Source: a virus. Taken from it: DNA of 27,507 nucleotides. The position numbers and the translations under genes were made by a program. A model generated the notes under the pieces. That model saw nothing but the letters and a program-made list of their open reading frames with translations. It did not search any database and had not been told where the DNA came from. Below, piece by piece: positions 18,533 to 22,016 of the stretch; the stretch's first letter is position 1, and each line of letters starts with the position of its first letter. The stretch lies in the IMG/VR virus record IMGVR_UViG_3300031974_002805, positions 1 to 27,507 of that record, one strand, 5' to 3'.

Positions 18533-18561
18533 TATAATAGGTCCATACGCAACAGACCTAT
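18533..18561 (+). promoter_or_regulatory. TATAAT box and dyad overlapping the start of the CobT-like gene
   Basis: TATAAT at 18533-18538 follows the terminator U-run by one base. A perfect 7-bp inverted repeat, ATAGGTC (18537-18543) and GACCTAT (18555-18561), overlaps the end of that box and the first two bases of the ATG at 18560. No standard -35 lies at the right distance, because that position is inside the terminator stem. Arms share AGGTC/GACCT with the terminator. Promoter assignment is tentative. Confidence 0.5.
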
Positions 18562-20692
18562 GACCGTCCGCCACGAAATCAAGTCCCAACTTGCTAAGCT
18601 TCTTGCCACTGAGGACTTGGTGGTTGAGAACCGTGCTGTGGAGACTGCATCGTTCAATGTAGAAACTCGCGTTCTTACGCTGCCTCAGTGGGAGCGAGCA
18701 AGTGGTACTGTTTATGATATGCTTGTGGGTCACGAAGTTGGTCACGCTCTCTTCACTCCCAACCAAGACCCTCCTAAAAATATTCCTCATCAGTTTGTCA
18801 ATGTTGTAGAAGATGCTCGCATTGAGAAACTGATGAAACGCAAGTATATGGGACTTGCAAAAACTTTTTATAATGGATACAAAGAACTTTCTGACAATGA
18901 CTTCTTTGTTCTGGAAGGTGAAGACCTTGCAAAAATGAATCTTGCAGACCGTGCAAACCTGTGGTTCAAGATCGGTAATTATGTTGATATTCCTGTCAAA
19001 AATGATGAAGAAAAAGAAATCATTGAAATGATTTCCAAAACAGAAACATTTGCGGATGTTATTGTTGTTTCTGAAATTCTTTACAATTATTGTAAGAAAG
19101 CACAAGAGAAAGTTGGTGATACTGACACTCAAGTGCAACAACAGCAGGAAAGTGAGCAGGAACAGCAACAACAAGTTCCTCAAAACAATGGTAAAGAGGG
19201 TGATGTTGATGATAGCAGCAATCAAAAAACTGGTGAAACATCTGCAGGAAAACCTGATGTTCAGAATGGTTCAACTGATCCTTCCTCCAAAGAACCAGAA
19301 GTTCACACAGTTAATTCCCTTGATGAAAAACTGAAAGATCTTATTGGAAATAATCAACAAGAATATACTTATGTTGAAGTTCCAAAAGTGAATCTTGATA
19401 CTATCATTGCACCTAATGATGAAATTCATTATTGCATTGATGATTACTTTGCAGAATTTGCAAAGCGAAAAGAATGTTCTGATGTTTATTCTGGGGCAGA
19501 CAAAAAATATCAAGAGTTCAAAAAGTCTGCACAGAAAGAAGTCAACTATTTGGTAAAAGAGTTTGAGTGCCGCAAGGCAGCAGATTCATATGCTCGTGCT
19601 ACCACTGCTCGCACTGGTGTTTTGGATTGCACTAAACTTCATACTTACAAGTATAATGAAGACCTGTTCAAAAAAGTTTCTGTGATTCCTGATGGCAAGA
19701 ATCACGGTCTTGTGTTTGTTCTAGACTGGAGTGGTTCTATGGCAAACATTCTGGATGATACTTGTAAGCAACTGTTCAACTTGATTTGGTTCTGTCGTAA
19801 AGTTTCTATTCCATTTGAAGTATATGCCTTCACAAACGAATGGAAGCGTTCTTACTTTGACTATCAAAAAAATGAATATGTAAATGTGAAACTGAAACCT
19901 CATTATGAAAAGAAAGATGGACTTCTTTCGGTTGATGATTCATTTACTATGATGAATATCCTTACCAGCAAAGTATCTGGAAAGGAAATTGAAAAACAGA
20001 TGATTAACATCTGGCGTATTGCACAATATTTTAGTTCTCATTACTGTGAATATTGTATTCCAGATCGTCTTTCTCTTTCTGGAACTCCTTTGAATGAAGC
20101 ACTTGTTTCAATGCATCAAATTCTTCCTAAGTTTCAACGGGAAAATAAATTGCAGAAAGTTCAGTGTATTGTTCTGACTGATGGTGAAGCAAACCCATTG
20201 ACTCGTCACGTTGAAGTAGAGCGTAATAATGGTAATGATGTTTACATTGGTCAGCGTCGTTTGAGTCCTCAAACTACTTTTGTGCGTGATCGTAAACTTG
20301 GAACTACATATCGAGTTGAAGGTCAATGGAATAAATTCACAGACCTTGTTCTTTGTAATCTGAAGGATAATTTTCCTTCTGTTAACTTCATTGGCATTCG
20401 TGTCATTGCTTCTCGCGATGCAAATAATTTCATCCGTAACTACACACGTAATAGTATTGAAGAATATTGCAAACTTCAGGCAAACTGGAAGAAAGAAAGG
20501 AGTTTTGTGATTCGTAGTTCTGGATATGACGCATACATCGGTATCTCTGCATCTGCACTTGCCAATGATTCTGAATTTGATGTTGATGATGGTGCAACGA
20601 AAGCAAAAATCAAGTCTGCTTTTGTTAAGAGTTTGAAGACTAAAAAACTAAATAAGAAGGTTCTTGGTGAATTTATTTCTTTGGTGGCATGA
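18560..20692 (+). CDS. CobT-like protein: HEVGH metallopeptidase-type N-terminus plus vWA domain
   Basis: From ATG 18560 the product has 710 residues; the open frame extends upstream only through the terminator. The N-terminal domain has a zinc-peptidase-like HEVGH at 58-62 and NVVEDARIEK at 81-90, which could supply a third Glu ligand and resembles the VEQARVE motif of CobT. A Gln/Glu/Ser-rich disordered linker spans about 190-265. The C-terminal von Willebrand A domain has a complete MIDAS: DWSGS with D389, S391, S393, then T509 in SGTPLNEAL and D541 in TDGEAN. This is the architecture of CobT/vWA partners of MoxR-type ATPases, and a CobS-like ATPase is encoded two genes downstream. No cobaltochelatase large subunit (CobN) is present. 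Whether it cuts protein or only assembles with the ATPase is unknown. Confidence 0.88.
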   Translation: MTVRHEIKSQLAKLLATEDLVVENRAVETASFNVETRVLTLPQWERASGTVYDMLVGHEVGHALFTPNQDPPKNIPHQFVNVVEDARIEKLMKRKYMGLAKTFYNGYKELSDNDFFVLEGEDLAKMNLADRANLWFKIGNYVDIPVKNDEEKEIIEMISKTETFADVIVVSEILYNYCKKAQEKVGDTDTQVQQQQESEQEQQQQVPQNNGKEGDVDDSSNQKTGETSAGKPDVQNGSTDPSSKEPEVHTVNSLDEKLKDLIGNNQQEYTYVEVPKVNLDTIIAPNDEIHYCIDDYFAEFAKRKECSDVYSGADKKYQEFKKSAQKEVNYLVKEFECRKAADSYARATTARTGVLDCTKLHTYKYNEDLFKKVSVIPDGKNHGLVFVLDWSGSMANILDDTCKQLFNLIWFCRKVSIPFEVYAFTNEWKRSYFDYQKNEYVNVKLKPHYEKKDGLLSVDDSFTMMNILTSKVSGKEIEKQMINIWRIAQYFSSHYCEYCIPDRLSLSGTPLNEALVSMHQILPKFQRENKLQKVQCIVLTDGEANPLTRHVEVERNNGNDVYIGQRRLSPQTTFVRDRKLGTTYRVEGQWNKFTDLVLCNLKDNFPSVNFIGIRVIASRDANNFIRNYTRNSIEEYCKLQANWKKERSFVIRSSGYDAYIGISASALANDSEFDVDDGATKAKIKSAFVKSLKTKKLNKKVLGEFISLVA

Positions 20693-20832
20693 AAGAAAAC
20701 TGGAAAGACATTGCAATTGCATCAGAGAAGGACCCTAAAGTCATTCAGATATTGCGAGAGGGTCCCAAATCTCTTTCAGAGGCATATCTTCTTCAAGCTA
20801 TGAAATACAGGTATGGACAGTTAAAATATTGA
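20689..20832 (+). CDS. 47-residue protein between the CobT-like and CobS-like genes
   Basis: ATG 20689 overlaps the preceding stop as ATGA, giving 47 residues ending at TGA 20830-20832. It starts MKENWKDIAIASEKDPKVIQ and ends MKYRYGQLKY, a charged, probably all-helical miniprotein. Base use resembles its neighbours, and the start-stop overlap supports real, coupled translation. It could be an accessory of the CobT/CobS-like pair. No family recognised. Confidence 0.6.
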   Translation: MKENWKDIAIASEKDPKVIQILREGPKSLSEAYLLQAMKYRYGQLKY

Positions 20833-20871
20833 CCACTCTGCTCCTGACCCTGCCCCACTCTGCCCTATAAT
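20833..20871 (+). promoter_or_regulatory. Putative promoter with 22-bp-spaced direct repeats upstream of cobS
   Basis: CCACTCTGC occurs at 20833-20841 and again at 20855-20863, a 22-bp period or about two helical turns. TATAAT follows at 20866-20871, with CTGACC at 20844-20849 as a possible -35 (16-bp spacing). The segment is C-rich, unlike the surrounding sequence. The arrangement suggests a regulated promoter with two protein-binding sites. Confidence 0.55.
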
Positions 20872-20900
20872 AACTTCAGTTGAAACAAACAAACCACATT

Positions 20901-22016
20901 ATGTCTCTCTCCCCCGACTACATTCGCACTTCTCTTCAAGCACTTTATGGTGAGACTGTAACCTCTGGTGATGTTCGTGCATGGTGTGCAATGAACGGGC
21001 ATGGATATCAAACTGTCACTAACAAACTTTCTGACTGCAAAGTTGGTCGTGGTAAGTGGAACTTGGAAGTAACTAAAGAGACTGTGCAGGACTTGGAAGT
21101 TTCATATAATGCTCCTGCAGCAATGCCTGCAATTGAACAAAACCTTATCCCAGAAAAAGATGATACCTTCGTCAAGTTTGGCAATTTTGGTGACATTAAA
21201 AAAATCATTCAGTCCAATATTTTCTACCCTACATTCATTACAGGTCTCTCTGGCAACGGCAAAACGTTCTCTGTTGAGCAAGTTTGTGCCCAACTCAAAA
21301 GGGAACTGATTCGCGTCAACATTACTATCGAAACTGATGAAGATGACCTCATTGGTGGATTCCGTCTGGTTAACGGTGAGACCGTTTGGCACAATGGTCC
21401 AGTCATCGAAGCCTTGGAGCGCGGTGCGGTTCTACTGCTTGACGAGATTGACCTGGCTTCCAACAAGATTCTTTGCCTTCAATCGATCCTTGAAGGTAAA
21501 GGAGTTTTCCTGAAAAAGATCGGTAAGTGGGTGACACCTAAGAACGGATTCAACATCATTGCCACTGCCAACACGAAAGGTAAAGGTTCTGATGATGGTC
21601 GTTTCATCGGCACTAATGTTCTGAATGAAGCATTCCTTGAGCGTTTCCCTGTGACCTTTGAGCAGGCATATCCTTCTCCTGTAAGTGAAGCAAAAATTCT
21701 TGCCAAAGTTGCTGATACTCTTGGTGTGAATGATGATGAGTTCTGCTCTCGTTTGGTTGACTGGGCAGACATTATCCGCAAAACCTTCTATGATGGTGGT
21801 ATTGAGGAAATCATCAGCACCCGTCGCCTGGTTCACATTGTTCGTGCATATAGCATCTTCGGTGATAAGGCAAAGGCAATTCAAGTTTGCATCAATCGTT
21901 TTGACGATGAAACCAAGCAAGCATTCCTTGAACTGTATGACAAGGTTGATGCTGACTTCCAACTTCCTGAAGTGGAAGATTGTACTGCAGAACTTGACCC
22001 TCCCAATACTTTCTGA
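20901..22016 (+). CDS. cobS: CobS-like AAA+ ATPase (MoxR/CobS family)
   Basis: Ring-forming AAA+ ATPase, annotated in many cyanomyoviruses as CobS after the aerobic cobaltochelatase subunit. From ATG 20901 it has 371 residues. An N-terminal helix-turn-helix-like segment of about 55 residues precedes the ATPase. Walker A is GLSGNGKT at 115-122, Walker B LLLDEID with D181-E182, sensor 1 ATANT at 221-225, and a likely arginine finger in LERFP at R248. IGGFRLVNGETVWHNGPV between A and B is the CobS/MoxR-type pore insert. The vWA partner lies upstream. A cobalamin role is family lore and unproven for phages, and no other cobalamin gene is visible here. Confidence 0.93.
   Translation: MSLSPDYIRTSLQALYGETVTSGDVRAWCAMNGHGYQTVTNKLSDCKVGRGKWNLEVTKETVQDLEVSYNAPAAMPAIEQNLIPEKDDTFVKFGNFGDIKKIIQSNIFYPTFITGLSGNGKTFSVEQVCAQLKRELIRVNITIETDEDDLIGGFRLVNGETVWHNGPVIEALERGAVLLLDEIDLASNKILCLQSILEGKGVFLKKIGKWVTPKNGFNIIATANTKGKGSDDGRFIGTNVLNEAFLERFPVTFEQAYPSPVSEAKILAKVADTLGVNDDEFCSRLVDWADIIRKTFYDGGIEEIISTRRLVHIVRAYSIFGDKAKAIQVCINRFDDETKQAFLELYDKVDADFQLPEVEDCTAELDPPNTF

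Follow-up and report, generated by a model that had tools for sequence, protein, structure and literature searches.

The cobS/cobT-like gene pair of T4-like cyanophages as a probable MoxR-vWA remodeller with a conserved zincin-like domain

The 27,507-base virus record IMGVR_UViG_3300031974_002805 (the window, meaning the whole stretch analysed) is a fragment of a T4-like cyanophage that carries a CobT-like gene followed by a CobS-like gene. Rather than a cobaltochelatase, this pair very probably encodes a MoxR-vWA remodeller that includes a conserved zincin-like domain. The pair occurs in hundreds of marine cyanophages, usually labelled as vitamin B12 genes. cobS is listed in the cyanophage core (Sullivan et al. 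2010, PMC3037559), and the literature treats this T4-like cyanophage core gene as a B12 auxiliary metabolic gene and as a cyanophage community marker (PMC3037559, PMC9983427). Whether cyanophage cobS shares the function of the host gene has been stated as not known (PMC9983427). Should the pair prove to be a remodeller that contains a protease domain, conclusions about B12 based on cobS in ocean viromes would be wrong, and a conserved machine of phages would become directly testable.

The CobT-like protein and its metal site

The CobT-like protein of 710 residues contains a zincin-like metallopeptidase domain (~1-180), a disordered acidic/Gln linker (188-242), a helical region, and a vWA domain with a metal ion-dependent adhesion site (MIDAS) at ~380-660. 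A sequence-only reading of the window had reported HEVGH at residues 58-62, NVVEDARIEK at 81-90, and a complete MIDAS formed by D389, S391, S393, T509, and D541. The translation confirmed all three, and the five MIDAS residues were unchanged in all 103 non-redundant relatives.

The AlphaFold2 model, built from 67 sequences, had a predicted local distance difference test (pLDDT) score of 80.6. Its N-terminus consists of helix 9-17, strands 21-25, 31-33, and 38-42, helix 49-65 bearing HEVGH, and helix 77-95 bearing E84 and D85. This predicted order fits a small zincin-like metallopeptidase. Foldseek searches with the model returned vWA domains, including NorD of NorQD complexes, and the family profile found no match among PDB sequences. 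The window protein scored 12.1 bits against PF06213, under the cut-off of 26.1, and gave no match to PF11775.

The window protein was aligned with its homologues from phages HTVC008M (Pelagibacter), P-HM1, DLP6 (Stenotrophomonas), OC (Ochrobactrum), and SSU5 (Salmonella), which are 16-42% identical to it. Twenty-four columns were invariant, and these included H58, E59, H62, N81, E84, D85, and I88 together with D389, S391, G392, S393, and M394. HExxH and N-x-x-E-D match the MIDAS in conservation among phages with 16-44% identity. In an unbiased set of 79 relatives, found by peptide patterns containing neither motif, H58, E59, H62, N81, E84, and D85 were all invariant, which rules out a chance motif; loci retrieved with HExxH or NxxED patterns were left out of this claim. 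In divergent sets (28-38% identity), merely 5-7% of columns were invariant, and all six metal-site residues held wherever the N-terminus was present.

Comparison with chelatase CobT

The chelatase set comprised the 30 cellular CobT loci with the strongest PF06213 matches (E < 1e-95), and the corresponding segment was read in 29. None of the 29 has HExxH at the aligned site, where the sequence reads S-V-A-L-K. The lone HExxH-like string in this set, HEPAH in locus L201, falls outside the aligned segment. The SSU5 phage protein is an unambiguous CobT relative, with PF06213 (2e-37) and PF11775 (2.5e-112) both above cut-off. Its segment VRGFLDHEVAHILFTDP gave a gap-free alignment with VRGHADSVALKLACHDP from cellular CobT, which places HEVAH opposite SVALK and the following ED of SSU5 opposite EQ, ES, or ET. 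The contrast of HEVAH with SVALK provides a simple residue rule for separating the viral remodeller from chelatase CobT.

For the third metal ligand, the sequence-only reading had proposed E84 or E85. E84 was found, but residue 85 is an aspartate. Because D85, and not E84, disappears along with HExxH, D85 appears to be the better candidate.

Four bacterial proteins with weak PF06213 matches (L222, L223, L225, and L226) keep both HExxH and ED-x-R-x-E. A CobS-like ATPase lies within a few kb of three of them, and they possibly belong to mobile elements. In profile comparisons, these HExxH-bearing intermediates matched chelatase CobT at 99.7% over 557 columns and the phage family at 98.5% over residues 36-185. 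The phage and chelatase profiles compared directly gave just 28 columns at 53%. Chelatase CobT is thus homologous to the CobT-like protein over the N-terminal domain by way of the intermediates. In a maximum-likelihood tree with long branches and an unsure root, chelatase CobT formed one clade (99/99) amid HExxH-bearing groups. The simplest reading of these sequences would be a single loss of HExxH in the chelatase line.

Among 85 Pseudomonadota genomes with strong CobT, a CobN/ChlH-family match was missing in 22, a count that incomplete genomes may inflate. Cellular CobT may therefore also have a role outside chelation.

The CobS-like ATPase and its pairing with the CobT-like protein

The CobS-like protein has an intact Walker A motif (residues 115-122, counted from ATG 20901) and an intact Walker B motif (D181/E182). 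The sequence-only reading had described a 47-residue open reading frame (ORF) followed by a CobS-like AAA+ protein with this Walker A, and both stood when that start was used; ATG 20901 was preferred over TTG 20880. The match to TIGR01650 (CobS) was 3e-21 and 75.9 bits, against an equivalog cut-off of 558.55. PF12556 (CobS_N), found at the N-terminus of true CobS (1e-16), was detected in 0 of 5 phage homologues. Among PDB sequences, the best match was Midasin/Rea1 (3e-49), and solved CobS matched at 6e-22. The structural model (pLDDT 84.5) led Foldseek to CbbQ and NorQ of the MoxR group, with template modelling scores to the target of 0.84-0.86. These motifs, family scores, and folds support the earlier suggestion of a MoxR/vWA remodeller rather than a demonstrable chelatase. 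In the profile comparisons that had been proposed, a MoxR AAA+ with a vWA partner was recovered, and neither window protein reached the CobS or CobT cut-off.

The first ~68 residues (20901-21104) are predicted to form a helix, a strand, two helices, two strands, and a helix. By secondary-structure order alone, this region looks like a winged helix, and it is possibly a DNA- or partner-binding module. Sequence searches of this region for a family or fold gave nothing credible.

The two genes occur together. CobT-like matches were found in 463 phage records, almost all from cyanophages, and the CobS-like protein was covered by at least 80% in 459. The two tallies agree by host name, at 365 Synechococcus phages, 61 records named 'Cyanophage', and 24 Prochlorococcus phages. 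The CobS-like gene lies downstream of the CobT-like gene in 159 of 183 viral loci, and most of the others have short downstream flanks. Cyanophages regularly carrying one gene alone, which would have spoken against the pair as it was first described, were not seen. Gp55 of Staphylococcus phage 812 was considered as a vWA partner of the AAA protein of that phage and was dropped, since it has neither HExxH nor a D-x-S-G-S MIDAS.

Genomic context and expression

The order gp55/47/46, pair, gp45/44 is shared by cyanophages, Pelagibacter phage HTVC008M, and Ochrobactrum phage OC. In DLP6, the pair adjoins UvsX and a primase-helicase. In SSU5 and in phage-plasmids of E. coli, Klebsiella, and Acinetobacter, it adjoins DNA polymerase III alpha. 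Relatives of the SSU5 protein were found in 970 plasmid records, and a gene near-identical to the E. coli version was found in 219 of 5426 E. coli genomes, each time plasmid-borne.

The window contains three plus-strand TATAATA sites in total (16280-16286, 18533-18539, and 20866-20872). All three lie 27-41 nucleotides 5' of start codons, those of the gp46-like, CobT-like, and CobS-like genes. The site before the CobT-like gene comes immediately after a terminator hairpin, and the same layout recurs in relatives. The three module genes may each be transcribed as a separate unit that lacks a clear -35 box. Among relatives, 115 of 140 have TATAAT in the 70 nucleotides before the CobS-like gene (6 expected), and 34 of 168 have it in that interval before the CobT-like gene (7.6 expected). 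In the same 140 and 168 relatives, neither gene is preceded by the T4 late motif TATAAATA. Because TATAAT is present and the late motif is absent, the pair is probably expressed outside the late phase. A literature search found no expression timing for the pair in Syn9 or other transcriptomes.

Proposed function and alternative explanations

The CobS-like protein would form a MoxR-type AAA+ ring, and the CobT-like protein would join it in a complex as a dedicated partner, with a C-terminal vWA/MIDAS and an N-terminal zincin-like domain. On the model of NorQ-NorD, CobS-CobT, and midasin, the MIDAS of the vWA domain would engage a motif in a substrate protein, and the ATPase ring would act on the protein so bound. 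The metallopeptidase domain would probably bind zinc and clip the substrate. NorQ-NorD targets nitric oxide reductase, and CbbQ-CbbO targets Rubisco. These systems supply the nearest solved folds (CbbQ/NorQ for the ATPase and NorD for the vWA domain), but no metallopeptidase domain was seen in those matches. Midasin/Rea1 shares the MIDAS-based remodelling logic and differs as a single giant polypeptide with six AAA domains acting in ribosome maturation. The cobaltochelatase CobS/CobT (PDB 9uka, 9ujv, and others) likewise combines a MoxR-type AAA+ with a vWA protein; it lacks HExxH, has Q, S, or T in place of D85, carries CobS_N and CobT_C, and acts with CobN, whereas the phage pair has neither CobS_N nor CobT_C.

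Part of this picture has precedent. A MoxR-vWA system with an N-terminal metallopeptidase was described in group 2.2 jumbo phages, with a proposed role in virion assembly (Iyer et al. 2021, PMC7824862). By that published description it has the same architecture, a MoxR AAA+ beside a metallopeptidase-vWA fusion; cyanophages and OC belong to group 2.1 in that study, and metallopeptidase-vWA is described there for group 2.2. The cyanophage pair itself was termed a core-genome cobST cluster, with a 'peptidase' label judged mistaken (Liu et al. 2021, PMC8651126). Here, contrary to that judgement, the metal site of the same pair was found intact and distinctive. Given these two papers, the remodeller-protease idea is less new than the sequence-only reading supposed. 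The existence of the genes was already known; what is new is the reassignment and the residue evidence. Our literature search found no paper joining the viral cobST and MoxR-vWA-metallopeptidase lines, or noting that chelatase CobT lacks HExxH.

We lean slightly towards real proteolysis by the CobT-like protein. The zinc-protease idea of the sequence-only reading came through the available comparisons, namely the motif invariance and the contrast with chelatase CobT. Several points weigh on the other side. The metallopeptidase domain matched no Pfam peptidase family. Chelatase CobT keeps E84, which weakens E84 as the third ligand. The CobT-like protein of an Acinetobacter phage-plasmid of ~110 kb (L235:4004-5926) has QEVAK and EEARVE and keeps its AAA partner, so that proteolysis would be dispensable in at least one lineage. 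As read from the sequences, this loss of the metal site is independent of that in chelatase CobT. 

The Acinetobacter protein and chelatase CobT, both of which lack the motif yet keep the pair, also favour a zincin-like fold with a purely structural or binding role, as it has in chelatase CobT. Such a dead scaffold, although it fares best among the alternatives, is unlikely, since every other viral relative whose N-terminus is complete keeps H58, E59, H62, N81, and D85.

Three settings were considered for the remodeller, namely replication/recombination, virion assembly, and host takeover. We lean to the first on account of gene context. As the pair sits among replication and recombination genes in unrelated phage backbones, the substrate may tentatively be sought in the replication/recombination machinery of phage or host. 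Such placement, however, is guilt by association only. Virion assembly, in which the pair would remodel and clip structural proteins of head or tail, draws on the shared architecture in group 2.2 jumbo phages and on a MoxR-vWA system required for archaeal virus tail assembly (Iyer et al. 2021, PMC7824862). It is rather improbable, given the grouping with replication and recombination genes, phage-plasmids included, and the promoter pattern of TATAAT before the CobS-like gene without a late-type motif at either gene. We rate host takeover no higher. Here, the pair would unfold or cleave a host protein, for example in a defence or transcription complex, and the fast-evolving CobT-like protein (35-61% identity to relatives) beside the slower ATPase (62-85%) might be expected of a host-facing subunit. 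However, the pair belongs to the core and keeps a fixed replication setting in hosts of different phyla, which a phage-internal or universal target fits better.

The cobaltochelatase proposal is the weakest, and we consider it quite improbable. The CobS-like protein is a true distant homologue of CobS, as its TIGR01650 and solved-CobS matches show. Moreover, S. elongatus has a CobN/ChlH-family protein (PF02514) and no CobT, so that cyanobacterial hosts could conceivably have a free CobN. The low family scores, the missing CobS_N and PF11775, and the cellular CobT genomes lacking a CobN match speak against it. No CobN-like gene had been visible to the sequence-only reading, and no CobN match was found within the 27.5-kb fragment. 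The possible hijack of host CobN raised by that reading found no support, since Salmonella, E. coli, and Klebsiella phages or phage-plasmids and a Pelagibacter phage carry pairs with intact HExxH. E. coli, Salmonella, and Klebsiella are not known to encode CobN, and Pelagibacter is regarded as incapable of B12 synthesis. E. coli is not known to synthesize corrins de novo, and Salmonella uses CbiK. Pelagibacter has been given as a suggested B12 scavenger (PMC4303638). The proposal that viral CobS and CobT join host CobN, and so raise cobalamin and B12-dependent nucleotide reduction, was made by Liu et al. (2021, PMC8651126).

Taking the remodeller reading to its full extent, the viral 'CobT' might be an active zinc protease, driven by a MoxR ring and working in phage replication, with the bacterial chelatase motor descended from a proteolytic remodeller of this type through loss of the catalytic site. 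This combined proposal is speculative. If it were true, cobS, the widely used 'vitamin B12' auxiliary gene of cyanophages, would be no B12 gene at all.

Organization of the locus

The nearest annotated relative of the window is Synechococcus phage Bellamy (~78% identity across 45% of the stretch searched). The module runs gp46-like, a 147-residue ORF, CobT-like, the 47-residue ORF, CobS-like, DUF3310, and gp45-like, with the features listed in Table 1.

Table 1. Coordinates of features in and around the CobT-like/CobS-like module of the window
Feature	Position	Strand	Remarks
gp46-like (SbcC-like) recombination endonuclease subunit	16321..18033	+	phrog_77
Terminator-like hairpin, then T run	18506..18525	+	directly 5' of CobT-like promoter; arrangement also in relatives
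TATAAT -10-like element before CobT-like gene	18533..18538	+	
CobT-like protein, 710 aa, ATG start	18560..20692	+	phrog_459 'peptidase', E=4e-262
HEVGH (residues 58-62, helix 49-65), putative zinc-binding/catalytic motif	18731..18745	+	
NVVEDARIE, residues 81-89, on helix 77-95	18800..18826	+	E84 or D85 candidate third metal ligand
MIDAS D-x-S-x-S, residues 389-393	19724..19738	+	
47-aa ORF	20689..20832	+	phrog_869, no function assigned; optional passenger of slot
TATAAT -10-like element before CobS-like gene	20866..20871	+	in 115/140 relatives
CobS-like MoxR-family AAA+ ATPase, 371 aa, ATG start	20901..22016	+	
DUF3310 protein	22054..22455		between CobS-like and gp45-like genes
gp45-like sliding clamp	22452..23138	+	phrog_223

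Two adjacent ORFs of Methylobacterium plasmid pAMS5a (L234:1055-3492), instead of a single one, separately encode the metallopeptidase domain, with its HEVGH, and the vWA domain.

The start of the 47-residue ORF overlaps the end of the CobT-like gene by 4 nucleotides. This ORF was found in 58 of the 159 pairs. An obligatory third subunit or adaptor was ruled out for it, since most pairs lack it and other genes occupy its slot. The gap between the CobT-like and CobS-like genes is a variable slot of ~30 to 4000 nucleotides, and in P-SSM3 it carries a phycocyanobilin:ferredoxin oxidoreductase gene.

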